From the NCBI RefSeq assembly GCF_000421105.1, contig NZ_ATWF01000002.1, positions 248,001 through 312,000 on the forward strand: a stretch of 64,000 nucleotides of DNA, written 5' to 3'. The DNA is from Limisalsivibrio acetivorans. Lineage in GTDB: Bacteria > Chrysiogenota > Deferribacteres > Deferribacterales > Geovibrionaceae. Both the position numbers and the translations under genes were made by a program. Of this stretch, positions 29,248-43,775 are shown one piece after another. The notes below the pieces were generated by a model. That model ran no database searches, was not told the DNA's origin, and saw only the letters and a list, made by a program, of their open reading frames with translations. Positions within the stretch are counted from its first letter, which is position 1, and every line of letters starts with the position of its first letter.

Positions 29248-29272
29248 AAAAAAAGCCGCCCGGAGGCGGCCT
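29248..29272 (-). terminator. Terminator closing the phage structural operon
   Basis: 6-bp GC stem GCCGCC / GGCGGC with loop CGGA, followed on the minus strand by seven T's. It is a few bases past the stop of the last phage gene (29279). Confidence 0.85.
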
Positions 29273-29278
29273 GCTGTC

Positions 29279-29530
29279 TTAGTCCTTCCTTTTGTCCTCT
29301 AACACAACCAAGTTTCCATCATAGATCTTTCCATTGAAAACAATCTCTGCATTAACGCCCCTGCAGGGCGGAACTTCTTGAGGCTCTGTCGTTTTTTTTA
29401 GTGAAACAAAGTATCCGTCTGCAGAAATGCTAAAGGGCACCCTCCATAGGTTCAATCTCCATACCCCTGTATCGGGTATATCAAGCGTCCTCAGTCCATT
29501 CTCATTATCGTTGTATATCTCAAAAGTCAT
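29279..29530 (-). CDS. Small phage protein of unknown function
   Basis: 83 residues, last gene of the phage operon, 8 bases after the fibre gene. Acidic and basic residues are mixed, with no membrane helix and no motif I recognise. Position after a fibre gene suggests a fibre-assembly or accessory tail protein, but nothing in the sequence proves this. Confidence 0.6.
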   Translation of the reverse strand: MTFEIYNDNENGLRTLDIPDTGVWRLNLWRVPFSISADGYFVSLKKTTEPQEVPPCRGVNAEIVFNGKIYDGNLVVLEDKRKD

Positions 29531-29538
29531 AATACCAC

Positions 29539-31638
29539 CTATACCTTTGCTATTCTTGTAGCAAAATGTTCAGTTCTGGTTGCGTCAGCAACTGTGATAT
29601 TGTGTTTGAATAGTCCATCAGTAGTTCCACTCATGTACGCTCCTCCTAATGAGATAGACTGTTCTTCGGTTGATGAGCTGGGATAAAAGAAGTCGGAGAA
29701 GGTCGAGTTCAGCTCTTCCGACTGCACAGATGCGGGAATGAACACTGCAGACATATCGAACCCCGCTCCAGTCGAATCATGAACCGTTGAAACCCACCCT
29801 GAGGAGCCTAGATCGGATAGACCTGTGTTCACGTAATTACCCGTCCCAGTATTCTCCAAAATGTGTAAATAGCCCGATGTATCGCTCTTAAAACCCTCAC
29901 ACATCTTAATGCAGTTACCCCAAAGCTCATACAGACCCCTCCATACTGCCCCTGTAGAACCGTTTGTCATTATTTCCGAGCCGTTCGAGTTTCCTGGATC
30001 TATGGCGGACTGCACATCCGGCGTTCCTGTTTCAATCAGGCATAGCATCTGGATCGCTCCTATTTCATAGATCGTCCACATATGAAAGCCGTCTACACCC
30101 CCGGTATTCCTTGCTTCCGCCTTTGTTATGAAAGTACTCATAAGCTCATCTGTCATGGCGAGCACGCCATAGGTTGAGCCAAGCATGGTACCTCCATCAT
30201 CATTGGCGTTATATTTCCCGACGTAAAACTGTTCTATTTCAACCCCCGCATCTACAAACGCAGGATGAACTGAAAAGCCATCTTCCGGGGTATCGGAAAT
30301 CCACCAGCACTTCTTGCCCTCATATTCACTTCCGGTTGGTGCTGCAGCAACCTTGTAGTAAAACTTAGGTATCCTAACCATCTCCTGAGAGTCTATGGTT
30401 ACGTCCGTTATTCCACCCCATACTGGGTGGGAATCAAAGGTAGAACTGGTAGGTGATATACTGTTCCCCTGTTCGTCCACATATGCCCACGTCCCGCTCC
30501 CCCCTCCGGGAGTTACAAGTGCCAATCCGATAATGCCCGAGGTTGTATCGGCCGTGGCGAAGGATGTTTCTGAGGAGTATTCAGACCATCCGAGTACAGA
30601 CCCCTTATGCCTTACACGCCAGTAGTAGGAAGTGTTCGGACTAAGGGCACCGAAAGGTACACTGACTGAAACCAGATTCAGTGGATCTTCCCCTGAGTCC
30701 CATACAGTCGACGTATAGTCTCCAGATACATCAGTAATCTGCCACTGACTGGCAGAGTGTGTGTCTGTTGTGCCTGATACTGAGAATGCACTGGATGACA
30801 GGCTAAGCGTTGTAGAGGTATCGACGGATGCATCAGGAGGGCTCTGGTTAAAGGGTGTGCTAACATACTCAAAAGCAGAAGCGGTTGTGAATGAAGTGTA
30901 ATCCGACCACTCGGATGTCAGACCCGAATCCGAGGTATAAGCCACACGCCAGTAGTACGTTGAATTTGCCGAAAGGTTTCCCGACGGAACATTACATTGG
31001 GCAATATAACCTATCTGTCCGCTATCATAAGCAAGCGTACTAAATCCGCTATCCGAAGCGATTTGAAACCTTGCATACATTGCAGGGTTAAGCCCGGAAT
31101 AGTCGGATGAAGTAAGAGTGGGCGTTTCCTGAATATCCACTGCACCGGATGCGGGTGATATATTCGAAGGCTTATCAGGTGCATAAGCCTGCTCTACAAC
31201 TACGGAAAAAGCACCGCTCCAAGGCGAATCGGAGTATGTCACACCATCACCCTTTGCACGAACACGGACATTATAACTTCCCGATGCCCCCCATGAAAGG
31301 GTTATGGTAGGGTCCGCACTACCCGCCAGCATACCGGATACCACCGTATAGGTCCCATCCGCCTCCCATTCAAGGGATACAGCCTCGGCTGCTATATTTG
31401 ATGCAGATAAGAGCGAACCCTCATCGGTGTAGACAGGGGTCACTCCCGAAACCGAAGGGGCTGTGAGAGCCGGAAGTGACGCAGGAGGGTTGCTTAACCT
31501 TACTCTTAGCGCAGATTCTGACTCATCATGGACAAGATTCAGGACCTCTCCATCCGTTTTATATGTTGCTTTAAGTTCCTGCGAATCCGAATCAAATACA
31601 TCATTCAGAATCTCAGGAACGGTTTTTCTGCCAGCCAT
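29539..31638 (-). CDS. Phage tail fibre with Fn3/Ig-like repeats and lectin-like C-terminus
   Basis: 699 residues. After a short N-terminal segment come repeated Ig/fibronectin-type modules (for example YYWRVAYTSDSGLTSEWSDYTSF and YYWRVRHKGSVLGWSEYSSETSF). The C-terminal 300 residues begin GIIGLALVTPGGG and contain WRGLYELWGNCIKMCEGF and LGGAYMSGTTDGLF...HFATRIAKV, resembling the formylglycine-enzyme/C-type-lectin fold used as a receptor-binding tip in phage fibres. GGAGGG precedes the ATG. It probably determines the receptor. I saw no reverse transcriptase or template repeat nearby, so diversification cannot be claimed. Confidence 0.75.
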   Translation of the reverse strand: MAGRKTVPEILNDVFDSDSQELKATYKTDGEVLNLVHDESESALRVRLSNPPASLPALTAPSVSGVTPVYTDEGSLLSASNIAAEAVSLEWEADGTYTVVSGMLAGSADPTITLSWGASGSYNVRVRAKGDGVTYSDSPWSGAFSVVVEQAYAPDKPSNISPASGAVDIQETPTLTSSDYSGLNPAMYARFQIASDSGFSTLAYDSGQIGYIAQCNVPSGNLSANSTYYWRVAYTSDSGLTSEWSDYTSFTTASAFEYVSTPFNQSPPDASVDTSTTLSLSSSAFSVSGTTDTHSASQWQITDVSGDYTSTVWDSGEDPLNLVSVSVPFGALSPNTSYYWRVRHKGSVLGWSEYSSETSFATADTTSGIIGLALVTPGGGSGTWAYVDEQGNSISPTSSTFDSHPVWGGITDVTIDSQEMVRIPKFYYKVAAAPTGSEYEGKKCWWISDTPEDGFSVHPAFVDAGVEIEQFYVGKYNANDDGGTMLGSTYGVLAMTDELMSTFITKAEARNTGGVDGFHMWTIYEIGAIQMLCLIETGTPDVQSAIDPGNSNGSEIMTNGSTGAVWRGLYELWGNCIKMCEGFKSDTSGYLHILENTGTGNYVNTGLSDLGSSGWVSTVHDSTGAGFDMSAVFIPASVQSEELNSTFSDFFYPSSSTEEQSISLGGAYMSGTTDGLFKHNITVADATRTEHFATRIAKV

Positions 31639-31647
31639 TGTTCCCTC

Positions 31648-31860
31648 CTAGAGTGACTTTTTAACCCTTTTAACGTCGATCTTATCCAGTGATTTCCGTA
31701 CCTCTTCAAGTATCTCATCATCAATGGAAGTGTCCGTTCTTTCGGTAAGATTCTCCAAAGACCTCAATACAATGAGCCTTATGATATTCTCCGTTACAAA
31801 TGCCTTGAAGATAGACATAAGCGAACCTGTCAGAACTGTTGTTAGCGTACTAATCATCAT
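31648..31860 (-). CDS. Small phage membrane protein, candidate holin
   Basis: 70 residues: a hydrophobic N-terminal half (LTGSLMSIFKAFVTENIIRLIVL) and a charged C-terminal half with TDTSIDDEILEEVRKSLDKI. Small proteins of this shape are common beside phage lysins. It overlaps the M15 peptidase gene by 11 bases, which supports a lysis role, but holin function is inferred from position and topology only. Confidence 0.55.
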   Translation of the reverse strand: MMISTLTTVLTGSLMSIFKAFVTENIIRLIVLRSLENLTERTDTSIDDEILEEVRKSLDKIDVKRVKKSL

Positions 31861-32281
31861 CTCCCCCTATACTTTTGTATGCACTTTCAAAACCTGTGTA
31901 ACTACTGCCGATTCTCCCCCAGCGTGCAGAGTATCCCCGGATATCCAGATGAAAGCCGGGATCTCTCCAGTCCGGATATATCCCTAGCCCCACATAAGCG
32001 GCTGATACGGTATCGCATATCTGAACCTTATGGAGTGCCTCAAGCAGTGCATTGACCCCGGTTTTGTAGCCAACCCCTTCAATATGGAAATCCACCGCAT
32101 CACCCGTATAGTGGCGACTGCTGGTGGCATGCCCCGATGTTTCATAGCCACAGTGGATCAGAAAAGGCCTGTCTACACAACCCCTCAGACTATCCAGCAG
32201 GATAAGCAGAGCAGGGTTTATCCTGTCCGGATCCCCCCAGTTTTCATCCTTACTGAAATACTTTAGATTATTCCAAATCAT
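31850..32281 (-). CDS. Phage M15-family peptidase, probable endolysin
   Basis: 143-residue zinc peptidase of the M15A/YcbK-like type, expected to cleave peptidoglycan peptides. The metal site is visible as SSRHYTGDAVDFHIEG (HxxGxAxD type) and the second motif DPGFHLDIRG (HxD). There is no signal peptide, consistent with release through a holin or with attachment to the tail tip. It lies between tail genes and the candidate holin. Confidence 0.8.
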   Translation of the reverse strand: MIWNNLKYFSKDENWGDPDRINPALLILLDSLRGCVDRPFLIHCGYETSGHATSSRHYTGDAVDFHIEGVGYKTGVNALLEALHKVQICDTVSAAYVGLGIYPDWRDPGFHLDIRGYSARWGRIGSSYTGFESAYKSIGGDDD

Positions 32282-33243
32282 TCCCTCCTCCCTGTTACAA
32301 CCTTCATTAAAGGCTCCCCCCTGGAGCCGTTGTAGTCAACATAGCCCAAAAATGGATATTTGTTAGCCTCCTTATTATTAGCGTTAATTGTGTGTACTGC
32401 GAAATGGAAAGTGCTCTCGGGCGTTCCAGCTGTTAATGAGAATGCTGCACGACCGTTGTCTAAGCGATAAACCTCTCCTGCCTCCAAAACCACAAGGCCA
32501 TTGTAGTCCGGCTCTGGTCGCCACTCTGTATTCATCTCATACAGCAGTTCGGCTTTTCCATTGATATAAAGGAATGTTTTTGTGTTCGTATCCCAGCTGG
32601 TGTTTGTTGTAATTGTCTGCCTGGTGTGTTCAATTACTGCAATATCAAGCCCCGGCACAGATGCCTGGGCCTTAATCTCAATCCATTCCCCCCAGCGGTC
32701 CACAAGACAGGAATCGTAGTATTCAGAAACGACCATAACTCCAGAACCATCCCGAAGGAGTATACGGTCGATTCGCTCGACACACTCATCAATGTCCACA
32801 GCGGACTCCATGATGCTGAACAAACCTGTCCCAGCCTGTGAGACTTCCTCATATCCTTCATCGAATTCATCGTTTGTTATCAATTCATAAGGCTCAGTCT
32901 CACCACATTTAGAGATTAACCATCCACCTTCTGCAAGATAAGCGTATTTCACCTTACAACAGGGTCTCAGCTCATCAGCGAAACCTATCACCCTGTCAGT
33001 TGCTCCACACAATAAAAGCACCTCATCACCAACGCTGAATGCACTGGATGCGCCTGCAATCGAACCATCCACAACTTCTTCTGAGTCGGGAGTGCAGTGA
33101 TACAAAACGGGGACACCCGTAAGCAGCTCTCCAGTATCAATATCCAATGTATTCCCTTCTTTATCCACACCGGTCACCACACCGTGCACAAGGCTGTATG
33201 CCTCGGCAGCCTGCCCTAAGTTATTGACCTTTAATAAAGACAT
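32278..33243 (-). CDS. Phage tail/baseplate-region protein
   Basis: 321 residues, no membrane segment. The N-terminus VHGVVTGVDKEGNTLDIDTGELLTGVPVLYHC followed by SVGDEVLLLCG looks like an OB/beta-barrel module as in baseplate spike proteins; this is a weak resemblance. ATGA overlap with the lysin gene and a short gap to the upstream tail gene place it in the distal-tail set. Function not assigned. Confidence 0.6.
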   Translation of the reverse strand: MSLLKVNNLGQAAEAYSLVHGVVTGVDKEGNTLDIDTGELLTGVPVLYHCTPDSEEVVDGSIAGASSAFSVGDEVLLLCGATDRVIGFADELRPCCKVKYAYLAEGGWLISKCGETEPYELITNDEFDEGYEEVSQAGTGLFSIMESAVDIDECVERIDRILLRDGSGVMVVSEYYDSCLVDRWGEWIEIKAQASVPGLDIAVIEHTRQTITTNTSWDTNTKTFLYINGKAELLYEMNTEWRPEPDYNGLVVLEAGEVYRLDNGRAAFSLTAGTPESTFHFAVHTINANNKEANKYPFLGYVDYNGSRGEPLMKVVTGRRE

Positions 33244-33252
33244 ACGCTCACC

Positions 33253-34137
33253 TCATCCGTAAAGTGCCACAGGTAAAATCAAATCGGCCTCTTCATCAAG
33301 GGTTTCCCTCACAGAGGCTGATGAAAAGCTTCCCAAAGGCTGCAGGCCGCTACCGATAATTCCCTTTCCAATGCAGACACGGCTGTCCAGCCCATAATCG
33401 AAATAGTCTGAGGGTTTCAGTGCGTATCTTTTCTTCCTGAAATCAACCAGCCAGCGCAGGTCTGAACTGCCAACCCATTCGCCGTTGAACTCAACACCTT
33501 CACCACCTTCCAGGAAGACACCGTCGCTCCAAAGACCACAGCCTACTGTTACTGCGGAGGTAAACAACTCTGTCTCGAAAAAGGATGAGGCGTAGTATAT
33601 GCTGGCACCATTTTTAAGCTTCAAATTGACAGTTACGGATGTTCCAGGAACCGGGTATTTATCTCTGGGATTGATATAAAACGTCTCAGTGTCAGACCAT
33701 ACATAACCAGGGTTTCTACCTGTGATCTCACCGGAACTCGAAGGTGTGTGTATTGTAAATGAGTCCTTTCCCCAAACAATCGATACGGATTCAAGACCAC
33801 ATATATCTGGCATATTAATATAGTAAGCTAGCTTACTATCACTATAATAATATGATATACGCCTGTTTTCAGGCAGTATCGAACCACACGGTGAAAAGGG
33901 GATAACGTCCAGGCAGTTTTTGTCCCTCAAAACGGTATGTATTCCGGCACTCCCCTCATTACCCCTTCTGCCTATCTCCGCATTAACAGTAAGGGGGAGG
34001 TATCTTTCATCTACTCCAGAAAGCAGGGAACGGTTTTCCACACTGTATGAAATCCCTCTTGAACAGGCGTTTTTCACACATATGCCGCTGGGCTCCCAAG
34101 GATCCGGGCAGAGATATACGTTGAAACTTTCCATCAT
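33253..34137 (-). CDS. Phage tail-region protein, uncharacterised
   Basis: 294 residues, beta-rich by composition and Cys-containing (MESFNVYLCPDPWEPSGICVKNAC). No catalytic motif or membrane helix seen. It overlaps its upstream neighbour by 4 bases. A perfect 20-bp palindrome lies inside it at 33820-33839. A tail-tip structural role is inferred from position. Confidence 0.6.
   Translation of the reverse strand: MMESFNVYLCPDPWEPSGICVKNACSRGISYSVENRSLLSGVDERYLPLTVNAEIGRRGNEGSAGIHTVLRDKNCLDVIPFSPCGSILPENRRISYYYSDSKLAYYINMPDICGLESVSIVWGKDSFTIHTPSSSGEITGRNPGYVWSDTETFYINPRDKYPVPGTSVTVNLKLKNGASIYYASSFFETELFTSAVTVGCGLWSDGVFLEGGEGVEFNGEWVGSSDLRWLVDFRKKRYALKPSDYFDYGLDSRVCIGKGIIGSGLQPLGSFSSASVRETLDEEADLILPVALYG
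33820..33839. repeat. Perfect 20-bp palindrome inside a phage tail gene
   Basis: Half-site ATAGTAAGCT followed directly by its exact complement, no spacer. It encodes ordinary residues (DSKLAYY) in the tail gene. By simple chance less than one such palindrome is expected per window. Confidence 0.9.
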
Positions 34138-34898
34138 TCCACCGTGAATGAGTCGTTTCTGATATTGTCCGAATCGCTGTCTGCGTAGCCTTCCTTGGTT
34201 ATTCTGAGGCTATAGGTCCCCCTTCGGATAAGCCCTAGCGGCAGGGTTCCATCAACCCTCGAAACACCAGCAAACTTATCATTCAAATAAACATTTGCAC
34301 CCTCTACATCTTCGCCGGTGCAGGCATCACGGACATTAAGAGTGACCTGCCTGAGATCACTATCAGTCTCTTCGGTATAATCTATTGTAGTATATGAAGT
34401 TTCGCTTTTTGCGAAAACCTGAAAGAGGATAAGCGTGTGGGCCTGTGCGGATATGCAGTATCTATCGAATGTTGTAGCGTAACGAACTCTTAAGATGCCG
34501 CTTTTTTTCTCGCTAAGACTGAACGTGCTACCGCTGTTACGAAATTCTCCACAGTCCTTGCCCTCCCATGATGCCTCGAGTATTTTTACCGGAGGATATT
34601 CGGTTTTTGCATGATCAGATTCGTGGAATACCAGATACTCTGTATGTTCCTCACTCAAACCATTCTTTCGTTCGAGCACTTCGCCGGTATTCATTGTGGT
34701 TTCATGATTTATCAGACCGGGATATATCTTCAGGAAGCATCGCTCACCAGGCAAAAAATGCGTCCTGTTCCCGTTCATGGGGAGATCCTGCAGAACTCTG
34801 AGATCACCCTGTCCAGTGTCCCGTCTGGTGAAAATGACCGATTCCTTTCCCATATCATTCACCGTATACGTATATAACAACAGGGAATTCTGGTTCAT
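34134..34898 (-). CDS. Phage tail-region protein with C-terminal carboxypeptidase-regulatory-like domain
   Basis: 254 residues. The last 70 (VTLNVRDACTGEDVEGANVYL...GTLPLGLIRRGTYSLRITKEGY) form a recognisable PEGA/carboxypeptidase-regulatory-like beta sandwich, a surface-binding module often found in phage virion proteins. The N-terminal part is not recognised. It overlaps the upstream gene by 44 bases, an unusually long overlap; a later start would shorten it, but no better site is evident. Confidence 0.6.
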   Translation of the reverse strand: MNQNSLLLYTYTVNDMGKESVIFTRRDTGQGDLRVLQDLPMNGNRTHFLPGERCFLKIYPGLINHETTMNTGEVLERKNGLSEEHTEYLVFHESDHAKTEYPPVKILEASWEGKDCGEFRNSGSTFSLSEKKSGILRVRYATTFDRYCISAQAHTLILFQVFAKSETSYTTIDYTEETDSDLRQVTLNVRDACTGEDVEGANVYLNDKFAGVSRVDGTLPLGLIRRGTYSLRITKEGYADSDSDNIRNDSFTVE

Positions 34899-35334
34899 TG
34901 GAGGCTGGCACAGTTATTCCGAACCTCCGGTAATCAGCAAGTAAGGAAACCTTTGCAACGGCAATTCCGCCATCCTTTGGATCCACATCTGAGCTTATCC
35001 TGTTCACATCTGTTTTACTGATGTTCCCCAGTGAGTTACCGTACCATTTCCATGAAGAAACGCTCCTGAATGGAACATTTGTTTTAAGCTCACGACTTTC
35101 TACAAAGGTGTATACCTCATCATCCAATACTCCGCTCGCTGTACCAGCATCTATTATCGAGCCTGCACTGCTTGAATACAAAACTGCATCAGGTCTTTGG
35201 GCATAAACCCTGAACCAGGCTGTTTCGCCATAGATGAATCTCTTTCTGCCTTTATTTGCGGCATCATCCAGCATGATAACAACACCACTTTCCATGGATT
35301 CGGGTGTTACAAAACTTATCTTTACATCAGACAC
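34855..35334 (-). CDS. Phage tail-region protein, uncharacterised
   Basis: 159 residues, soluble, beta-rich composition (KISFVTPESMESGVVIMLDD). No motif recognised. Its start overlaps the stop of the 571-residue tail gene by one base, so the two are translationally coupled. Confidence 0.55.
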   Translation of the reverse strand: MSDVKISFVTPESMESGVVIMLDDAANKGRKRFIYGETAWFRVYAQRPDAVLYSSSAGSIIDAGTASGVLDDEVYTFVESRELKTNVPFRSVSSWKWYGNSLGNISKTDVNRISSDVDPKDGGIAVAKVSLLADYRRFGITVPASNEPEFPVVIYVYGE

Positions 35335-37049
35335 TAAGCCCCCCTTACAGGCACAAGTAAGCCTGTTTTCTGGACTACCCCCACGGGTGCACCCTCAATT
35401 CTCAATTCACTCATTACGCCAAAACCACTACCGGCCGGAGTATCTATAAGGCTTCCCATATTCTTCGATATAACAGAGGAATACAGGTGCTCAATCTCTA
35501 TGTACTCTTTAACTGCAGCCTCAATCAATCTGGACTCGGCATATCTTTTTGCTGTACATGATGAGGTAATTAGCTCATTTTTCTCTTCCAAAACACGAAG
35601 TCCACCCCCCGCAAGGAATTTCTTATTGAGGCCATCACCACAAAGAATCATTTCACCAGCCGTTTCTTTTGATGCACTGTAAACATCATATTTAATAAGG
35701 TAGCTAACCGTAATTTTATCGTACTGTTTATCGGAGTATACGATATCCCCACTCATGACTAGTCCGCTTGTTATGGGCTTAAATACCGGGTAGCTCAGAT
35801 TTCCTCGGCCATTAACGATAAAAACATCCTCGGTTACCTCTTCGATCCAACCTCTGTAAACAAGCTCTGCTTCACCCCCCACAGCTGTCAGATCCGGCTC
35901 ACCAAAAACCTTAACAATAATCCTGCTTCCTGCAGTTCCAGTTGTACTTTCTGGGATTATGAGTGTTTCGCCACCATAAGTAAGCCTGACCCCATCATAC
36001 GGTGAGCTGTCTATCTTTCTGGCAATTGACAGAACCGGATAAGGTGCCGATAATACATATTTATTGTGCTTCTTCAATGCTGTGTATCTTGCGTTTCCAT
36101 CGATTGCGAGGGTCATTCCACCCGCATTCAAGACAACTTCTGCAACATTTAAAGGGCTGTCATGCGTGATAACAGGCGCAATGGTGTAATCCTCTGAGAT
36201 CCAGTTCAGACCCGGAATAAGGCTTTGTACAGCTTCTTTCGCAGACCCACCGGACAGGACGATCCTCTTTTTTTCCCTGAGTACAAAGGCTTTTTCAGTT
36301 TCCTCCCCCTGCAGTTTGAGTGTCCGCTCCTTGTTTGATACATATGAACTCTGAACAAATAGAGTAAATTCATCATCATCCAACCCCACCTTGACCGTGC
36401 TGAACTCCATATTCATCTCACTAAGCTTAATCTCACCGGAGAGGAACTCCCCGTCACCGTACAGCTTAAGATAAGCATCTGTTACATATTGCGTTATCTC
36501 TCTATCATCACCATAGACAACCAGTGGCGTCTGCACATGAACAAGTGATTCACCATGTTCATTGCTGAGCCGAACCGATCCTCTGTAACCAGTTGCAGGA
36601 ATACTACTCACAACTGCTACGCACCCATTTAAGAGCCTCGAATCAATGGAAGCAAATAACTCCACACCTTCGCAGTGGCTGCCGCCTATATAGTTTTCTG
36701 ACTCGATTCTATCGCTGTTTCCGCATGAATAAACATGCTCTACACCACCCTCACCATAATTGGTTAGCTTGCTTACCAACAAAGCACTGCCACTCATGAT
36801 GTAACAGAGGAGCCCTTCCAGCAGGCATTCACCCGCCACTGAAATGGCGGTTGCATAGCTCGAATCGAAGTGTATAGGAAGAAGCCCGCAGGCAAGATCT
36901 AGTCCGCCCTCATAGCCGAAGGGTTCTGGGTACTTGATATCCGCACCAAAAGATAGGGAGCTCAAAATTTGGATAGAGCCCGCAAACATGAAATGGTCCT
37001 GTCCTGCACCCGTATCACCAGGTATGCAGACTCCCGGAACGCTGTACAT
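35334..37049 (-). CDS. Large phage tail protein, possible hub/baseplate component
   Basis: 571 residues, the second largest product of the operon. No coiled-coil or hydrophobic tape-measure pattern is present; the protein is rich in beta-type segments (YTIAPVITHDSPLNVAEVVLNAGG, GGETLIIPESTTG). The C-terminal helix-rich part (SCTAKRYAESRLIEAAVKEYIEIEH) is reminiscent of tail-hub proteins, which are often followed by small tail-tip genes as here. Assignment is tentative. Confidence 0.55.
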   Translation of the reverse strand: MYSVPGVCIPGDTGAGQDHFMFAGSIQILSSLSFGADIKYPEPFGYEGGLDLACGLLPIHFDSSYATAISVAGECLLEGLLCYIMSGSALLVSKLTNYGEGGVEHVYSCGNSDRIESENYIGGSHCEGVELFASIDSRLLNGCVAVVSSIPATGYRGSVRLSNEHGESLVHVQTPLVVYGDDREITQYVTDAYLKLYGDGEFLSGEIKLSEMNMEFSTVKVGLDDDEFTLFVQSSYVSNKERTLKLQGEETEKAFVLREKKRIVLSGGSAKEAVQSLIPGLNWISEDYTIAPVITHDSPLNVAEVVLNAGGMTLAIDGNARYTALKKHNKYVLSAPYPVLSIARKIDSSPYDGVRLTYGGETLIIPESTTGTAGSRIIVKVFGEPDLTAVGGEAELVYRGWIEEVTEDVFIVNGRGNLSYPVFKPITSGLVMSGDIVYSDKQYDKITVSYLIKYDVYSASKETAGEMILCGDGLNKKFLAGGGLRVLEEKNELITSSCTAKRYAESRLIEAAVKEYIEIEHLYSSVISKNMGSLIDTPAGSGFGVMSELRIEGAPVGVVQKTGLLVPVRGA

Positions 37050-37052
37050 CTT

Positions 37053-38027
37053 TTAATCAATCATCCAGTCGAGCCTGAAACGGTTCTCCGGCTCTCTGGC
37101 TGTACCTGCTGGGACTACCTCTTTTATCCATACCGGTGCGGAGGCCTCTTTTGTATCAAAACTAAGGGTATCTCCCGCCTGCCAGGAGCCTGTCCATCCT
37201 GAAGACTGGATCATGAACAAAGGCTCTGCTCCCACAGGGTTCAGCGGCGAGTATGTTCCAGATATACTCCCTGACGGGAGCGCACCCATTCGTGAACCGG
37301 CCACGTCAAACTCTGTTGCGGAAGTGAAGGTCAGTGTCCAGCTTTCTTCGATGCACCCTTGATTATTCACATCGATGCTACCATCGCTCAACCCTCCCGA
37401 TGCGCTCGTTACGATAACGTTTTCCGCAGCTGACTGAAGATTGCCTAGCTCAATACAAATACCCGCGCAGGTGGTATCCATGGGCATATCCTCGGGCACC
37501 TGCTCTGCTAGCCTGATGGTGGCCACATTTCCTATCCATGTTGCACAGGCGTTCCCATCATCAGTCGTTCTGGCTGTAATTATGCTGTCATCCTCTTTTC
37601 TGAACAGCATCAGCGAGCCGTCCGGTATGTCGAAATCGTTACTTTCGAAGAGCACCTGAACGGATGAATCTCCAGCTGTGACATCGGCATTTATGTAACC
37701 ACCCCCGGTCCAGCCGGAGTCGATTATATCCGCCTGGGTTTCTGAGTGGTTGGATCGTTTGATATAGAACCGGTCACCACCGTTGCTCGGAAGGCTTATG
37801 CAGACCGCCGCATCGTATGCAGGCTCTGATCCGGTAGAGCGGTTTGACATGAAAACCTTTCTGTACCTGAGGATGCCATCCGTACGCTCCTTTGATGTGA
37901 CCCTCGGAAAAAGGTTAAACTTAACACCGCTTACAACCGCCGCAGCGGCATCCATATGACCTCCGTTCACCGAAGTATCTGTTATCATGGCCGATTTATA
38001 AAACTTTATATCCGTCTGCTCCATCAT
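37053..38027 (-). CDS. Mu-like siphophage tail protein (conserved in transposable prophages)
   Basis: 324 residues. The N-terminus, IKFYKSAMITDTSVNGG followed by KFNLFPRVTSKERTDG and RYRKVFMSN, has the pattern of a tail protein I recall from Mu-like prophages with siphovirus tails in other phyla. No enzymatic motif. ATGA overlap with the upstream gene. It is the best clue that this operon derives from a transposable, Mu-like siphophage rather than a lambda-like one; the homology is recalled, not tested. Confidence 0.6.
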   Translation of the reverse strand: MMEQTDIKFYKSAMITDTSVNGGHMDAAAAVVSGVKFNLFPRVTSKERTDGILRYRKVFMSNRSTGSEPAYDAAVCISLPSNGGDRFYIKRSNHSETQADIIDSGWTGGGYINADVTAGDSSVQVLFESNDFDIPDGSLMLFRKEDDSIITARTTDDGNACATWIGNVATIRLAEQVPEDMPMDTTCAGICIELGNLQSAAENVIVTSASGGLSDGSIDVNNQGCIEESWTLTFTSATEFDVAGSRMGALPSGSISGTYSPLNPVGAEPLFMIQSSGWTGSWQAGDTLSFDTKEASAPVWIKEVVPAGTAREPENRFRLDWMID

Positions 38028-38407
38028 TCTCCCCCTAACTCACGAAGTTTAATTCTTCCGTAGTAGCATCCGGTTGATGACCCGTTTTCTACTGGGTCAA
38101 CCGGAGTGAAACTGAAACCACCATCCTCATTCCTGAACCTGACAATGAAAGCATTTGCTCCCAACTCAAGGATATAGTTAGCTGTCGTATTACTTGCCAT
38201 TCCACTCAGCATCTCCACCTGCTCCCTGCTGAACCATGATCTATCCTCCATGGATACAAGGTCTATATCCCTCCCGGTAATCCTTCGGGAGAAGAGAATC
38301 TCTGAGCCGTCAACGGCCGTTCTGCGCTCAGCTGAAACTCCAGAAGATGAAAACTCGTTCTCCCAGATGAGACCATCCGGAAGCTGTACACCGCCAAGGC
38401 TAATCAT
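38024..38407 (-). CDS. Small phage tail protein
   Basis: 127 residues (ISLGGVQLPDGLIWENEF...), soluble. N-terminal 'I.LGG..LP..L.W.NE' resembles small tail-assembly proteins found before hub genes in siphophages. It is 7 bases from its upstream neighbour and overlaps the next gene. Role inferred from position. Confidence 0.55.
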   Translation of the reverse strand: MISLGGVQLPDGLIWENEFSSSGVSAERRTAVDGSEILFSRRITGRDIDLVSMEDRSWFSREQVEMLSGMASNTTANYILELGANAFIVRFRNEDGGFSFTPVDPVENGSSTGCYYGRIKLRELGGE

Positions 38408-38414
38408 GCTTCAC

Positions 38415-39107
38415 CTAAACCATGTACCAGTTTGTTCCGCCGGAGATCAGCGCCCTGCTATCCCACTGGGTCGAAAGGGTGATATCAGCCTGCTGACCGT
38501 CTATCATCTCGCCGCTGTAACGGGTTATAGTGACCATTCCCGTTCCGGTGTTCTTAACGAAGAAGAGCCTGCCGCTGTAGAATGAAGGGTCTGGCAGTGT
38601 AACGGCTATGTCCGATGATGAGCTGTCAGCAAGGATGCACCTAACAGATCCGTCCATTTCATAGTCCGCTGTAATTCTCAAAGCTTCCGCCCTCTTGAGC
38701 AACTCTGTGCCGTTGTATGCAACCTCTCCAGAAACATCTGAAAAGCCGTCTATAACAGCTTTATTAGCATGCTCATGAATAAATGACTCAAGCTCGTCCA
38801 GCTTACCTGCCGTTATCACGTGGGCAACCTTGCTTCCGGCCGGCCAGCTCCTGGAAACCGTTCCTTCCTGACCTCCATAGCAGTTGAACAGAGGAAACAC
38901 TCCCATTCCATTGTACTCAAGCTCCGCGATCTCCCTTTCGGGATCTTTAAGGGGTGTACTGTGGGCGCCCCCCCAGATAACCGCCCTGAACCTGCCGCTT
39001 TTAGGAAAGTCTGAATCACTGGCCATATACAGGCTCGATGGGTTCATGGAGTTATCAAGATCCTCAGAGAGGGTCGTAAGAGCAAAATTTGCATTCTTTA
39101 GAAGCAT
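38415..39107 (-). CDS. Phage tail-region protein, uncharacterised
   Basis: 230 residues. The C-terminal half (SSDIAVTLPDPSFYSGRLFFVKNTGTGMVTI) resembles a short beta-helical or head-fibre module seen in phage virion proteins. The N-terminal half is unrecognised. It occupies the place where a tape-measure gene is expected in siphophages, but its length and composition do not fit one. Confidence 0.55.
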   Translation of the reverse strand: MLLKNANFALTTLSEDLDNSMNPSSLYMASDSDFPKSGRFRAVIWGGAHSTPLKDPEREIAELEYNGMGVFPLFNCYGGQEGTVSRSWPAGSKVAHVITAGKLDELESFIHEHANKAVIDGFSDVSGEVAYNGTELLKRAEALRITADYEMDGSVRCILADSSSSDIAVTLPDPSFYSGRLFFVKNTGTGMVTITRYSGEMIDGQQADITLSTQWDSRALISGGTNWYMV

Positions 39108-39116
39108 ATTTTCACC

Positions 39117-39815
39117 TTAGTAAATATCTATATCTATTAAGCTTTCATTGGATGAGGCATCGATGAATACTCCTGCAAAAGGTAGGTTTACCCAATCTCT
39201 GTCTGCAGGAGAGATCCCCCCCTTCGGTGCCAGTGACACTCTTCCGGAAAACCTCAATGTTCTACCGTTGTCCGCATCTCCTACGAAAAATATATCCCCC
39301 GCAACACTTCTACCCCCAGAGACGCCCAGTCTACTATTACTTCCCGAATATCCGCTGAGAGTCGCTGTACTAGCCGGTACCGAACTCCCTTCGGGGATCC
39401 TTAGCATCCCCTCTCTTTTAAGAATCTCGTAGTCGCTCCCCTCAATGTATGAGATCCCACCGGAGGTCAGCTCTGCATTCGATATATCCACGTACCCAAG
39501 GGGATAGCAGCCACTGCCGTCTATATACAATTCCTCTGTGAAGCTCTGCTCAGGGTAGCTGTTGGGATTCGTTGAGAAGAATATGGAAAGGTTTTCATCG
39601 CCTATCCTGTCCAGAACAAACTCGAGCTCAATTACCCTGCGGACTAGTATCGACTCCTTCGGGACAAGCACTCCATCCTTCTCTCCAAAGCGCTCTTTTG
39701 TCTCATTTTTCACACTCAGACTCAGACTGGATACGTTTCCCATATCCCTGTGAGCGGTTTCCTCAGTACCCCTGAAATAGAGCCTCCCTCTGGAGGATGT
39801 GTATTCACCATTCAT
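39117..39815 (-). CDS. Candidate phage major tail (tube) protein
   Basis: 232 residues, beta-rich, following the tail-terminator-like gene directly. A beginning such as SRGRLYFRGTEETAHRDMGNVSSLSLSVKNETKERFG and the Ser/Gly-rich composition are compatible with a tail-tube monomer, which normally sits here. I cannot name a family. Confidence is for a tail structural protein, not for the exact part. Confidence 0.55.
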   Translation of the reverse strand: MNGEYTSSRGRLYFRGTEETAHRDMGNVSSLSLSVKNETKERFGEKDGVLVPKESILVRRVIELEFVLDRIGDENLSIFFSTNPNSYPEQSFTEELYIDGSGCYPLGYVDISNAELTSGGISYIEGSDYEILKREGMLRIPEGSSVPASTATLSGYSGSNSRLGVSGGRSVAGDIFFVGDADNGRTLRFSGRVSLAPKGGISPADRDWVNLPFAGVFIDASSNESLIDIDIY

Positions 39816-39818
39816 AAA

Positions 39819-40202
39819 TCAGCCTCCGAAGCTCCTTCGTATCACAACGTTGATCCTCCAGCTCCGGCTTCTCTTATCCGCCGAGGCCTCTTCAACGCTC
39901 CATGATATAACGGGAAGGCTGAGCAGGGCCGCCAGGGAGGAATCTATAAGATCCGCACCCCTTTTAAAGGCGTCCCCATCCCTGCCCAGTGAAACGGTGC
40001 GCAGTACAATGCTGTAGACAAGCTCCCTGCCCATCCTTCCCCCTATGGATGAAGATTGTTCGCTCACGAACAATACCTTCGCCGAAGGCTCCCCGGAGGT
40101 TTCCTGATCGTTTTCATCCATACCTGAAATGAGACTCACCCGTCTGAACAATCCAGTTTCCTTCAATGCGGAAACAAGAACTGCACCCGTTTCATATATC
40201 AA
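39819..40202 (-). CDS. Mu gp37-like tail-terminator/completion protein
   Basis: 127 residues. The pattern VLVSALKETGLFRRVSLISG followed by a beta-strand core resembles the Mu gp37 family (DUF1834), thought to act at the head-tail or tail-terminus interface. It is placed after the gp36-like gene, which is the Mu order. Start is 3 bases past the upstream tail gene in map order. Confidence 0.6.
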   Translation of the reverse strand: MIYETGAVLVSALKETGLFRRVSLISGMDENDQETSGEPSAKVLFVSEQSSSIGGRMGRELVYSIVLRTVSLGRDGDAFKRGADLIDSSLAALLSLPVISWSVEEASADKRSRSWRINVVIRRSFGG

Positions 40203-40214
40203 AACCTTCCCCCT

Positions 40215-40562
40215 TTAAGAGAAACAATTCCAGTCGGAGCTTCCCCCCTTAACAGCCGATTCCGCAACCCTCACAGGAGCAAGTGGTGCAAGGATATCAG
40301 AGGCCTCCTTCCGGAAGTTTTCCGCCTCAACCCAGTCGGCGGAATATGTGTAAAGCTCACACAGCGCCATCTTCTTAAGAGCAAGCCGTATAACCTTATC
40401 CTCTTCGTCGTATTCAAGCCCGAAGCGTTCTACAACGGCAGTGATGCGATCCCTTGCATTCTCCACAGCGTTTTCAGCTATGGTGTCGTCACCGCCGGTT
40501 ATTGCGTCGAAATCCTCCTGCTGAATCTCTTCCCGGAGCTCTTCAGCACTAAGCAGAGCCAC
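40215..40562 (-). CDS. Mu gp36-like (DUF1320) connector protein
   Basis: 115 residues, mostly helical: LLSAEELREEIQQEDFDAITGGDD...ENARDRITAVVERFG and IRLALKKMALCELYTYS. This matches the DUF1320/gp36 family of Mu-like phages, small proteins located between capsid and tail genes that likely form part of the head-tail connector. Confidence 0.7.
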   Translation of the reverse strand: MALLSAEELREEIQQEDFDAITGGDDTIAENAVENARDRITAVVERFGLEYDEEDKVIRLALKKMALCELYTYSADWVEAENFRKEASDILAPLAPVRVAESAVKGGSSDWNCFS

Positions 40563-40572
40563 GCATTAACCC

Positions 40573-41556
40573 TTATGCCGTGACAGCGGCCCAGTTCACC
40601 GCCTTAGTGTAAGGAACGGGGAGGGGCTTACTTTCCGCCACTAGCTCGATGGAGGATGTACGCTTATCCTCGACGGGCTTCACGAAGAAAGGCATGGAAA
40701 CGAGGTTGCTGTCCAGATCATCAAGAACCGCATAGACAAGCTCGAAGGGAGCATCCTTCGCCACTGCCACGATGGAGTTGTCGTCCACGACCTTAACCGG
40801 TGTTCCGTCCGCAGGGTTTGTATAAGATGAATTCATGAGACCGACGCTGTATCCGCCCACATTGATAGCCCTGTTTTCCATGGTGGCAACCACTGAACCA
40901 TCGAGGGATTGGACGATCTTACTGAGCGCCATGAAGGCGTCGCGCCCCGCCCAGAAGAGTATCTCGCCGCTGAAACGACTACTCTCCTGAATCGCCGCCT
41001 CCATCTCTATGAATGTAGCGATCACTTCATCGATGGTGATACCCGAATCATCCCACAGGGTTGCGGGTGTATGGGTCAGTGTCGTGCCGAAGTCCACCTC
41101 ATAGGTTCCGAAACCGCCGTCCATTGCCATGGGATAGCTTATCTTCCCCTTGAGCGACTGCGCCGCCATCGCCTCGGTAGAGGCTCTTACAACTCTTCTG
41201 AGCCTGTCTATCTTGTTATCGATAAGGAGCTTTGCTCCTGCTGTATCGATCATCTTGAAGTTGTTCACATCCACACCCGAAAGCCTTTCAGAGGGCCTGA
41301 GTGGCTGGGGTTCGATATGGGTAATCTCGCCGGAATCGCCGTAGAGGGGAACAGGGTTTGAGCCCCGTCTGCTCACTGCGATGTTGCGTATGGGCTGTTG
41401 AAGATCCGCCACAGCCACAGTGGGAAGCGGATGGTTTCTTCGCCTCTCCTCCTTGTATATGGTGTCCATTACAGGTGTTGAGAGAACGGGCATATCCGAA
41501 AGTGTGCGGACAAGCGCCTCCCTTGTGAAAAATGAGTTGATGTCGAACTGAATCAT
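40573..41556 (-). CDS. Phage major capsid protein (lambda gpE-like family)
   Basis: 327 residues, the usual length for this family. The N-terminus FDINSFFTREALVRTLSDMP and the following segment with PLYGDSGEITHIEPQPLRPSE resemble gpE-type capsid proteins, which are used with a gpD-like decoration protein; that protein is encoded next door. AGGAT/GGGGAGG precedes the ATG. The reading frame is intact. It would form the icosahedral shell. Confidence 0.8.
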   Translation of the reverse strand: MIQFDINSFFTREALVRTLSDMPVLSTPVMDTIYKEERRRNHPLPTVAVADLQQPIRNIAVSRRGSNPVPLYGDSGEITHIEPQPLRPSERLSGVDVNNFKMIDTAGAKLLIDNKIDRLRRVVRASTEAMAAQSLKGKISYPMAMDGGFGTYEVDFGTTLTHTPATLWDDSGITIDEVIATFIEMEAAIQESSRFSGEILFWAGRDAFMALSKIVQSLDGSVVATMENRAINVGGYSVGLMNSSYTNPADGTPVKVVDDNSIVAVAKDAPFELVYAVLDDLDSNLVSMPFFVKPVEDKRTSSIELVAESKPLPVPYTKAVNWAAVTA

Positions 41557-41574
41557 GTATCCTCCCCCTAGTAT

Positions 41575-41946
41575 TTAGAATGCCCAGATCTGGGTATTCT
41601 GCTCGAGTGTATCCTTATCCACATCTGCGGCCTCTGCTCCTTCTGTCTTGAGTGAGCTTCTGATAACCGTTCCGTGGACAACCACATTCCCAAGGCTGTC
41701 CTTTGCTGTATCCACGGGAAAAAGGTTCACCCCTACAGGCACCGCCAGCGTTGCGTTTGCCGAAACCGCATCCGGGTCATACGAAGATATGAGCCCGAGA
41801 GCGTCCTTCGCAACGATCTCACCTGCGGGAACCTCTCCCGAATCCGCCTTAAACTCCATAACCCGAACCACTGCGGGGTGACGGCCATCCAGAATCTCTG
41901 CGGAATCCACCGTCTGTCTGTTCACAACTGCATCGAATTTAGCCAT
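41575..41946 (-). CDS. Phage head decoration protein (gpD-like)
   Basis: 123 residues, small and Ala/Val-rich: RVMEFKADSGEVPAGEIVAKDALGLISSYDP and LAVPVGVNLFPVDTAK. This is the pattern of head-decoration proteins that stabilise gpE-type capsids. It lies between the protease and the capsid gene, the usual order. Confidence 0.65.
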   Translation of the reverse strand: MAKFDAVVNRQTVDSAEILDGRHPAVVRVMEFKADSGEVPAGEIVAKDALGLISSYDPDAVSANATLAVPVGVNLFPVDTAKDSLGNVVVHGTVIRSSLKTEGAEAADVDKDTLEQNTQIWAF

Positions 41947-41955
41947 GAAATCCTC

Positions 41956-42648
41956 CTATATCTTTGAAAAACATCTTGCCGATACGGAGGTATGCTCCCC
42001 CGCTCTGCTCATATCTGAACCGGGCTTAACCATCTCGGGGAGTGAACCGAAGAGGTCGATCAAAAGATCCGCCGCCTCAATCCTGCTCCCATCCGCCATG
42101 TTCACCGCTTCACTACTTTCTCTGGCGAAGCTGACGGCAGTCTCCAACCGGAATGCGGGAATCTTCCCCTCACCCGCCCTTCGCATCTGCTCGATCTTGA
42201 TCTCCCGAACCTCTTCACGCAGCCTTCTAAGCTCTTCAAGATTCGTAAGCACGCCACCTTCGGGTTCCACGGGTATGGTTATAAAGTCCTCCGTGTCCCC
42301 CATCTCGATAACCTCGAGATCCTTTATCATCGGTGGAACGCTTCCGAGAAATGCGAGATGATGAAGGTAGTAGCCATCCTCCCTCTTCCTTGCGCCGATG
42401 GACCATCTTCTGTACTCACCGCCATCGAACGCCTTCTGCATCTCCCCGGTCAACTCCACCTCGCCGAGAAGGGTATCCCCCTCAACCCAGATGCGCTTGA
42501 CCCAGCCGAGAGCGGGCATGGAATCCGCCAGCTCATGCCCCGCAGTAACGGGAACGTCTCCGGCAAAGGAGGCGGCTATCTCGCCAAGTATCTCCGGCGT
42601 AATAACCGTGTCTCCGTATGAACCTGTTTTTGCTATTTCGAGAATCAT
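41956..42648 (-). CDS. Phage head maturation protease/scaffold (Mu gpI-like)
   Basis: 230 residues. PVTAGHELADSMPALGWVKRIW, the turn GEYRRWSIGARKREDGYYLHHLAFLGSVPPMIKDL and the helical C-terminus (LEELRRLREEVREIKIEQM) match the Mu gpI type, in which an N-terminal protease is fused to a scaffold. It is the first gene of the operon: a strong GGAGGGG ribosome binding site sits 5 bases before the ATG and nothing phage-like lies upstream, so portal and terminase genes are missing. Confidence 0.7.
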   Translation of the reverse strand: MILEIAKTGSYGDTVITPEILGEIAASFAGDVPVTAGHELADSMPALGWVKRIWVEGDTLLGEVELTGEMQKAFDGGEYRRWSIGARKREDGYYLHHLAFLGSVPPMIKDLEVIEMGDTEDFITIPVEPEGGVLTNLEELRRLREEVREIKIEQMRRAGEGKIPAFRLETAVSFARESSEAVNMADGSRIEAADLLIDLFGSLPEMVKPGSDMSRAGEHTSVSARCFSKI

Positions 42649-42670
42649 CTAATCCCCTCCTCTTTGCTGA

Positions 42671-42704
42671 GTGAGAATATAAACCACTCACAAACAATGA
42701 TTGT
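42671..42704 (-). promoter_or_regulatory. Inverted repeats upstream of the phage operon, candidate operator
   Basis: Two dyads occur within 60 bases of the first phage gene. GTGAG (42671-42675) and CTCAC (42687-42691) flank a TATATT that could be a -10 element on the minus strand. Next to it ACAAT-G-ATTGT (42694-42704) is a perfect 11-base palindrome. A regulated promoter is plausible; I could not assign a good -35. Confidence 0.4.
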
Positions 42705-42818
42705 CACAATATGTTACTTCACGTGAATTTTTTGTGTCCATACACCTTTAAAGCTGTCGATTTTTTATACGCCATAGGTTAGAATCCCCAATCCCCAGTA
42801 ATCTAGGAGTGCTTATTC

Positions 42819-43775
42819 ATGAGACGATTTATTGTAATAGCCGCACTGCTGTGCGCCGCATGCGTACCCAAACAGACAGAACTGATGAACACAAAAGGGC
42901 TTAACGCCTTTGAATCAGGTAACCTTAACCGTGCAGAGGAGATTTACTCCGAAGCGATAGATGAATACGACCACTACACCACAAGGGAGCTTCGTGGAGA
43001 TCTCTATATGGAAAGGGGTGAGTATGCGGCGGCGGAGAACGACTACACAGCCGCCATGCGCTACCAGGTAAATATGGCAAGGCTATACTACAAAAGGGGG
43101 ATGGCAAGGCTCCATCAGGGTGCATACGATTTTGCTCTGCTGGATCTTGACGAAGCGGTGAGCAGAAAACCCTCCACATGGGCCGAAGCTTATGCCGGCA
43201 TGGCTGAAGCTTACCGGGCACAGGGGAACACCAAAGAGGCCCTCTTCAACTATACTAAGGCTATAACCTATGACCCAGAACTGACGATGGCGTATATCGG
43301 CAGGGGGAGAACATACCTCAAAGCCGGTGATCTCGAGCGTGCTGTTGTGGACGCCACCAAGGGGATAGAGCTTGCGCCGGAGTCCGCTGATGGTTACCTC
43401 CTCCGTTCGGATATACTCCGTTCGGCGGGTAAGGAGAGCTATTCCCTGCGTGATCTTGAAAAGGCCGTTGAGCTCGAGCCGAAGAATGCCGCCGCAAGGC
43501 ATAAACTCGCATGGAGACTTGCCACAGCCAAGGATCCCGCCATACGTAACGGAAGCCTCGCTGTGGAGAATGCCGCAGAAGCACTCCGACTGCGCCCCTC
43601 CAACAGGGGTGTGATAACACTCGCCGTGGCTTTGGCCGAGGCGGACAGGTTCGAAGATGCCCTTGAGATACTGGAACAAAGGATAGAGGCGGAGAAGGAC
43701 CTTGTGGAGAAGGACGGTCTCAGGGTATGGAAGAAGCTCTTTGAGAAGGGTGAGAAATACCGTGGGACGGAGTAG
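42819..43775 (+). CDS. TPR-repeat lipoprotein
   Basis: 318 residues. The N-terminus MRRFIVIAALLCAAC is a lipoprotein-type signal; the lipobox has Cys instead of Leu at -3, so lipidation is likely but not certain. The rest consists of tetratricopeptide repeats, for example AYIGRGRTYLKAGDLERAVVDATKGIELAPESADGYLLRSDIL, giving a helical solenoid for protein binding. AGGAG lies 9 bases before the ATG. Its function in the envelope is unknown. Confidence 0.85.
   Translation: MRRFIVIAALLCAACVPKQTELMNTKGLNAFESGNLNRAEEIYSEAIDEYDHYTTRELRGDLYMERGEYAAAENDYTAAMRYQVNMARLYYKRGMARLHQGAYDFALLDLDEAVSRKPSTWAEAYAGMAEAYRAQGNTKEALFNYTKAITYDPELTMAYIGRGRTYLKAGDLERAVVDATKGIELAPESADGYLLRSDILRSAGKESYSLRDLEKAVELEPKNAAARHKLAWRLATAKDPAIRNGSLAVENAAEALRLRPSNRGVITLAVALAEADRFEDALEILEQRIEAEKDLVEKDGLRVWKKLFEKGEKYRGTE

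Follow-up and report, generated by a model that had tools for sequence, protein, structure and literature searches.

A candidate domesticated, gene-transfer-agent-type phage particle in the Geovibrionaceae

Results

A compact particle operon and its separate packaging locus

We analysed a 64,000-nucleotide stretch of the Limisalsivibrio acetivorans genome (contig NZ_ATWF01000002.1, positions 248,001 to 312,000; hereafter the window, whose positions are used unless stated otherwise), which contains a cluster of phage-particle genes that we call locus A. This locus consists of 18 unbroken open reading frames (ORFs), g01 to g18, all on the minus strand from 42648 down to 29279. Spacing between neighbouring genes is -44 to +18 bases, coding sequence fills 13,341 of 13,370 bases (99.8%), and a Shine-Dalgarno sequence is visible at most starts (Table 1). 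The original prediction, an earlier reading of the bare sequence, had described 18 tightly packed genes on one strand, a terminator at the operon end and ordinary chromosomal flanks (mazG and a TPR lipoprotein), all of which we recovered: the operon ends in a terminator-like hairpin, and host genes lie on both sides (mazG-Fic-MraZ on one; the TPR lipoprotein, mqnC, galU and lon on the other). A repeat search of locus A returned only chance-like pairs and no att-like (attachment-site) repeats, and a simple sigma-70 scan counted no more promoters than in shuffles.

Profile searches of the locus A genes found no terminase, portal, MuF, tape-measure, integrase, transposase or repressor gene. The predicted absence of packaging, mobility and tape-measure genes holds within the cluster but not genome-wide, as a terS-terL-portal cassette in an ordinary chromosomal context (locus B; G000:C2:325358-328309, G000 being the L. 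acetivorans genome) lies 37 kb from the capsid gene and about 13 kb beyond the window end. The genome search proposed in that prediction found terminase genes and a Mu-type portal gene, but no conserved tape measure.

Locus A was compared in L. acetivorans and 11 relatives with iterated profiles. These 12 genomes, which we infer to belong to the Geovibrionaceae (NCBI places Denitrovibrio in this family), fall into four genera, g1 to g4, with L. acetivorans the sole member of g1; the phylum sample also held 39 other genomes. Genes g01-g05 and g08-g14 occur in the same order in 12/12 family genomes, g07 in 11 (after g09 in genera g2 and g4), and the first residues of g17 in most. The capsid gene is present as one conserved copy in every family genome and in one genome of another class, where it sits in a Mu-like prophage (L027) with portal, MuF, protease, decoration, capsid, sheath-like, tape-measure and baseplate genes. 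It was not found in the remaining 38 phylum genomes, barring one weak match in a 57%-complete genome. A weak second capsid match, in G027:C5, is surrounded by respiratory genes and was discarded as spurious.

The packaging genes are distributed in the same way. Profile searches for PF06074 (Mu portal) and PF03237 (terminase large subunit, TerL) gave one conserved copy of each in 12/12 family genomes, where they form the terS-terL-portal cassette among ordinary chromosomal genes, and TerL was not found in the other 39 phylum genomes, remote matches to prophage genes excepted. Across the family TerL is 57-65% identical to the L. acetivorans version, and its Walker A, Walker B, coupling and nuclease motifs are intact in 11/12 genomes. 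TerL is nearer to phages other than the Mu type (Staphylococcus phage Sazerac, 44%), which makes the gene set a mosaic. The small subunit, TerS, has no Pfam match at 0.01, and its N-terminus weakly matches the terminase small subunit family phrog_1206 (E 0.009 in L. acetivorans, 9.7e-6 in G018, a g2 genome). It seems to keep a helix-turn-helix (HTH)-like region, unlike known gene transfer agents (GTAs), whose TerS is described as lacking a DNA-binding domain (PMC11841831).

The distance between the two loci is about 12 kb in g2, 30 kb in g3 and 37 kb in g1, and in g4 they lie on separate contigs; the genes between them are conserved host genes. This arrangement suggests that A and B stem from one ancestral insertion that was later broken up. 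At distances of 12-40 kb, or on separate contigs, one 4-14 kb fragment, the size known for GTAs, could hardly hold both.

Selection and inheritance

We estimated the ratio of nonsynonymous to synonymous substitution rates (dN/dS) between congeners by the Nei-Gojobori method, with lon as a housekeeping control. Most head and packaging genes gave values of 0.02-0.1: 0.023-0.031 for the capsid (six closest pairs), 0.03-0.05 for the portal and 0.044-0.067 for TerL, next to 0.013-0.037 for lon. Among tail genes, g09 gave 0.08-0.10, and values were higher for g07 and g10, at 0.15-0.34 and up to about 0.6 in one distant pair (overall 0.15-0.46 for g07 and 0.19-0.58 for g10). Relaxed selection, which the original prediction had named as one of two results that would speak against domestication, is not what the data indicate: capsid, TerL and portal ratios are far below 1.

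Trees of the locus A head genes and of locus B have 9/9 splits in common. With lon, the single host marker used for this comparison, each shares 8/9 splits, the sole mismatch being one g2-internal node with poor support in the lon tree. The matching trees imply joint vertical inheritance of A and B from a time before the four genera diverged. Judged from these comparisons, both loci are under purifying selection, vertically inherited and co-diversified with their hosts.

Shared promoters and a lysis locus

In g2 and g4, TTAAACATAT or a one-base variant stands upstream of both A and B, with an extended -10 element 15-16 bases on. The pattern TTAAACATATN{16,17}KTANNAT (TTAAACATAT-N16/17-KTANNAT), searched across the 12 whole genomes, has 13 matches, five at locus A, six at locus B and two at a third locus, C; it has none in g1 or g3, and a reversed control pattern has 0, about 0.03 matches per genome being expected by chance. 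Because the pattern was picked after the A and B promoters had been seen, matches at these two loci are not independent evidence of specificity, which comes instead from the zero stray matches and from locus C. At the latter, present in two g2 genomes (G018 and G019), the promoter precedes a gene for a phage lysozyme (PF00959; E 7.6e-12 in G018) and then a g16 homologue, a gene content that marks it as a lysis cassette. Genera g1 and g3 have their lysis genes, g15-g16, within locus A. Genus g3 has a different element, TnACAy-N4-TrACAA, 19 bases before TATATT and ahead of both A and B; in 798 kb (both strands) it matches only locus A (four genomes, L. acetivorans included) and locus B (three genomes).

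A Mu-type head with a siphophage tail tip

The head genes (portal, protease, decoration, capsid) resemble those of Mu-type phages. In the tail, g08 and g09 are homologous to the genes that immediately follow the tape measure in phages of Vibrio (PG28), Marinobacter (AS1) and Shewanella (MuM16-1); the g08 family profile hits all three at that position, g09, with a mean column identity of 66%, aligns with PG28 over 95% coverage (1e-18), and g11/g12 match a PG28 gene. The particle genes thus combine, by homology, a Mu-type head and a siphophage-derived tail tip. An earlier description of the set as Mu-like was right for the head half but not for the tail-tip genes, which come from a siphophage-type tail. 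An AlphaFold model of g10 searched with Foldseek against the PDB matched baseplate hubs (Mu gp44, T4 gp27 and others; best E 5e-12, probability 1.00). The hub fold makes up the C-terminal two thirds of the protein, and mean model confidence reaches only 62, the first 173 residues being unmodelled. The same search with the g09 model was uninformative. The capsid had no match among 50,697 phage records and only two distant ones in viral contigs (L056, L057), and g09 had none in viral contigs.

In siphophages the tube, chaperones and tape measure sit between the tail terminator and the g08 equivalent. The corresponding interval holds the tube protein (g06) and g07 in L. acetivorans, g07 only in g3, and nothing in g2 and g4. 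The tail genes originally reported for the operon include a real major tail protein, but one present at locus A in no other family genome. With no conserved tape measure, and a tube only in L. acetivorans, there is no evident tail fit for DNA delivery. The particle may have a short tail, and it is possible that a divergent tube or tape measure is encoded at another locus.

At the distal end, residues 1-48 of the fibre protein g17 are 55-62% identical in the relatives where it was found, and the remainder cannot be aligned, which looks like modular swapping of the receptor-binding part. The variable part carries Ig-like domains and a phrog_5302 tail-protein C-terminus.

Table 1 Features of locus A and its borders in the window.
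Feature	Position	Strand	Evidence and distribution
TPR lipoprotein gene, divergent from particle operon	42819..43775	+	adjoins operon in 12/12 genomes
Promoter/operator of locus A	42676..42716	-	TAACATATTGTGACAA-N19-TATATT, 27 bases ahead of first start codon
g01 prohead (head maturation) protease	41956..42648	-	phrog_976 1.5e-15; 12/12 genomes
g02 head decoration protein	41575..41946	-	phrog_49 3.8e-6; 12/12
g03 major capsid protein, gpE family (capsid E)	40573..41556	-	PF03864 3.3e-46; 12/12, 61-73% identity
g04 head-tail adaptor candidate	40215..40562	-	position of Mu gp36; no family match, putative function; 12/12
g05 tail terminator/completion candidate	39819..40202	-	position of Mu gp37; putative function; 12/12
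g06 major tail (tube) protein, Ig-like domain	39117..39815	-	phrog_807 1.7e-19; only in L. acetivorans
g07 fibre-like tail protein	38415..39107	-	N-terminal match to phrog_6427/8469; 11/12
g08 tail-tip protein	38024..38407	-	phrog_4408 2.6e-20; homologue of small gene just 3' of siphophage tape measure
g09 distal tail protein, shortened	37053..38027	-	homologue of siphophage gene after g08 equivalent
g10 tail hub	35334..37049	-	Mu gp44/T4 gp27 fold, residues about 174-571 (AlphaFold and Foldseek)
g11 tail protein, paralogue of g12	34855..35334	-	phrog_24905; related to Vibrio phage PG28 tail-region gene
g12 tail protein, carboxypeptidase-regulatory/PEGA-like C-terminus	34134..34898	-	phrog_24905; PF13620 below cut-off; 12/12
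g13 conserved tail-region protein	33253..34137	-	12/12
g14 conserved tail-region protein, N-terminal half conserved	32278..33243	-	12/12
g15 endolysin, M15 peptidase type	31850..32281	-	phrog_894 9.8e-6; at locus A only in genera g1, g3
g16 small lysis-cassette protein	31648..31860	-	phrog_402 1.6e-8; homologue after lysozyme at locus C in g2
g17 fibre/receptor-binding protein	29539..31638	-	phrog_5302 7e-22
g18 small last gene	29279..29530	-	only in L. acetivorans
Intrinsic terminator-like hairpin with T tail, operon end	29253..29272	-	sequence

Neighbouring genes, regulators and other prophages

The TPR lipoprotein is only 28-42% identical among family genomes, yet is divergently adjacent to locus A in 12/12, and may be a member of the particle system. 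The far side of the locus in g1 and g3 is mqnC-amrS-like-galU-lon. In g2 and g4, three loci examined beyond the TPR gene (L022:17046-19964, L020, L026) carry a subtilase (S8 peptidase), an XRE-type HTH protein and an excisionase-like HTH protein; these genes are possible regulators or partners of the particle genes. Three HTH regulators lie near locus B, outside the window (L058:9004-11902, equivalent to G000:C2:321004-323902), and are conserved in g1 and g3; two of them have S24-peptidase-like domains. The one of 270 residues also occurs downstream of locus A in G018. The HTH/S24 genes are candidates for GTA control, with an architecture like that of the regulator RogA.

True prophages are patchy in the family, with MuF (PF04233) in 2/12 genomes and strong PhageMin_Tail tape measures in 3/12. 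The PF10145 match in L. acetivorans was rejected as the particle's tape measure, as it lies within a distinct prophage that carries capsid-like, sheath-like and baseplate-like genes of its own. One separate prophage of this genome, L116 (G000:C1:1140000-1159990), has contractile-type tail genes (sheath-like, baseplate-like, tape measure). PF20155 exceeded its cut-off only in G021:C1, beside a Mu-like prophage, and in G025:C11, beside a Mu-type portal and MuF; these were likewise set aside. The Mu-like prophages L119 (G021:C1:385000-404990) and L120 (G025:C11:1-19990) have their own portal and MuF and are unrelated to loci A and B; L119 also has a transposase. In the other 11 genomes the phrog_807 profile gave only weak matches, in G021:C7 and G025:C3, near PF10145 matches of the same contigs.

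Discussion

Our data suggest that locus A is the structural locus, and locus B the packaging motor, of a vertically inherited, domesticated GTA-type phage particle in the Geovibrionaceae, a reading to which we give a probability of roughly three in four. Its basis is gene content, organisation in two or three loci, co-inheritance, purifying selection, shared promoters and intact TerL motifs. GTAs have been defined by particle genes derived from tailed phages, endogenised and often dispersed over several loci, with vertical inheritance and co-diversification, and further by a genome that cannot be packaged whole, encapsidation of random host DNA and delivery of that DNA to other cells (PMC9662315). 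Here we found phage-derived particle genes (capsid E, Mu-type portal, terminase, protease, hub and endolysin), endogenised over multiple loci (A and B in 12/12 genomes, C in two g2 genomes), with vertical inheritance and co-diversification across the family (12/12 genomes, 8-9/9 splits, low dN/dS). The original suggestion of a GTA-like particle with packaging genes elsewhere is thereby supported, as terS-terL-portal is present in one conserved copy per genome at a second locus in 12/12.

On this interpretation, host regulators would act on a shared, clade-specific promoter to turn on A, B and the lysis genes at the same time. Host chromosomal DNA would enter the protease-matured gpE capsids by way of the Mu-type portal, and the lysis cassette (within locus A in L. 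acetivorans and g3, at locus C in g2) would lyse the cell and free the particle, whose hub, tail tip and fibre would then pass the DNA on to related cells. The predicted steps of this scheme are particle formation, random packaging, lysis on induction and delivery. A more specific proposal is tentative and may well prove wrong: a GTA of independent origin without tube or tape measure, in which a Mu-type, DNA-filled head would carry the siphophage tip directly or on a very short neck, the tube protein would be left only in L. acetivorans, and packaging, structural and lysis genes would be tied together by a clade-specific promoter rather than by linkage.

Several observations weigh against a functional GTA-type particle. 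In the family genomes, searches with PF10145 and PF20155 found no conserved tape measure, and a search with g06 did not find the tube protein in the other 11 genomes. The locus B promoter of L. acetivorans (upstream of L058:15893-16309) has no clear match to the locus A promoter of the same genome, unlike in the 11 relatives. Damage is also present, in genus g2 only: the single-contig genome G018 has an insertion sequence (IS) transposase between g12 and g13 (L026:12605-14005) and no fibre gene detected after g14, G020 has a split g13 and lacks g07, and TerL of G019 has an in-frame TGA. The G019 and G020 assemblies are fragmented, and assembly error may account for their broken genes.

The main rival is a PBSX-like device, which packages host DNA fragments, does not inject them and acts as a bacteriocin against relatives; we consider it unlikely, yet worth taking seriously. 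The standard alternative named for GTA-like loci is PBSX (PMC12946183), and the same genomic signatures (chromosomal location, vertical retention, lysis genes) would be expected of it, such that sequence alone cannot separate a PBSX-type particle from a GTA. It would also fit the fast-evolving tail-side genes (g07, g10), the variable fibre C-terminus and the absence of any evident tube through which DNA could be injected. Portal and terminase, however, are strongly constrained, which indicates that packaging itself is selected; no immunity gene was recognised, and a hub-fold protein and a siphophage-type tail tip have been kept.

It is improbable that the particle serves a purpose unrelated to DNA transfer, for instance as a nanocompartment or a device for protein delivery. 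Loss of the tape measure, loss of the tube protein in three genera and the TPR lipoprotein that is always adjacent could be read in this way, but every genome has kept terS-terL-portal, its catalytic motifs are intact and its dN/dS is low, and its co-regulation with the capsid implies DNA packaging.

We regard as very improbable that A and B are two pieces of one active Mu-like or siphovirus-like prophage, or a satellite that uses helper phage functions. Neither locus has replication, integration or immunity genes with it, and the hallmarks of Mu-like transposable prophages (MuA/MuB transposase, MuF, tape measure) are in neither. A spacing of 12-40 kb in g1-g3 could stem from a single prophage, but the intervening genes are conserved host genes, the loci are on different contigs in g4, and the real Mu prophages of two genomes have their own portal and MuF, unrelated to A and B.

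Least probable is a decaying or recently truncated prophage, which the original prediction had offered as the simpler alternative: integrase, transposase and phage replication genes are absent and some g2 genes are broken, but no relative has a full prophage at the site, and the same reduced set beside the same TPR gene in 12/12 genomes of four genera, its colinear order, dN/dS near that of lon, host-congruent trees and shared promoters refute decay as a general explanation.

With RcGTA/CcGTA (Rhodogtaviriformidae) the Geovibrionaceae set shares a phage-derived head-tail cluster, several loci, vertical inheritance, separate lysis genes and a lack of integration and replication genes. Regulators of host type are a further parallel: RogA has HTH and S24-like domains, and HTH-S24 proteins lie beside locus B in g1 and g3. 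The phage ancestry of the set appears to be different, as judged by gene content (gpE capsid, Mu-type portal), and in the Geovibrionaceae terS and terL lie apart from the capsid operon, TerS seems to retain its HTH-like region and no tape measure was found. Bartonella GTA (Bartogtaviriformidae) is likewise multi-locus and co-diversified with its hosts, and some reports describe tailless or short-tailed particles (PMC9662315); it belongs to another host phylum, and random packaging and transfer, which are predictions for the Geovibrionaceae particle, have been shown there. Brachyspira VSH-1/BhGTA (Brachygtaviriformidae) is also non-proteobacterial, with a genome thought to be dispersed over several loci and a putative TerL. 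Its transfer has been demonstrated experimentally, and we assume a phage ancestry different from that of the Geovibrionaceae set. FpGTA of Faecalibacterium (PMC12946183), which we liken by its published description, provides another case of conserved GTA-like operons outside the Alphaproteobacteria with short-tailed morphology, in a different phylum and with packaging of host DNA shown by particle sequencing.

Among phages, Mu-like gpE phages (prophage L027, viral contigs L056 and L057) have homologous portal, protease, decoration and capsid genes (capsid 38-40% identity). They differ in having MuF, plus a tape measure in L027 and L057, neither of which is conserved in the Geovibrionaceae set. 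Phages PG28, AS1 and MuM16-1 share the post-tape-measure genes g08 and g09 (and g11/g12 in PG28), whereas the Geovibrionaceae set has no tape measure and keeps a tube gene only in L. acetivorans. The set is best seen as a candidate GTA lineage that would be new, of independent derivation and unusual in its tail.

Few GTA lineages are known, and work on GTAs is dominated by the Alphaproteobacteria. The recognised families come from Alphaproteobacteria and Brachyspira (PMC9662315), and reviews state that homology alone is unable to find new GTAs (PMC11841831, PMC12946183); in the literature that we searched, mostly outside subscription journals, no GTA was reported for this family or phylum. Three genomic tests employed here could be used elsewhere: whether the capsid gene is universal and single-copy, whether the same holds for terminase and portal at an unlinked locus, and whether unlinked loci have a promoter in common. 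The lack of a recognisable tube makes the set a natural experiment on the amount of tail required for DNA delivery, and since the family includes cultured species (Denitrovibrio), function is directly testable. If our interpretation is true, the Deferribacterota would harbour an independently domesticated GTA that has become fixed in a whole family, the Geovibrionaceae.

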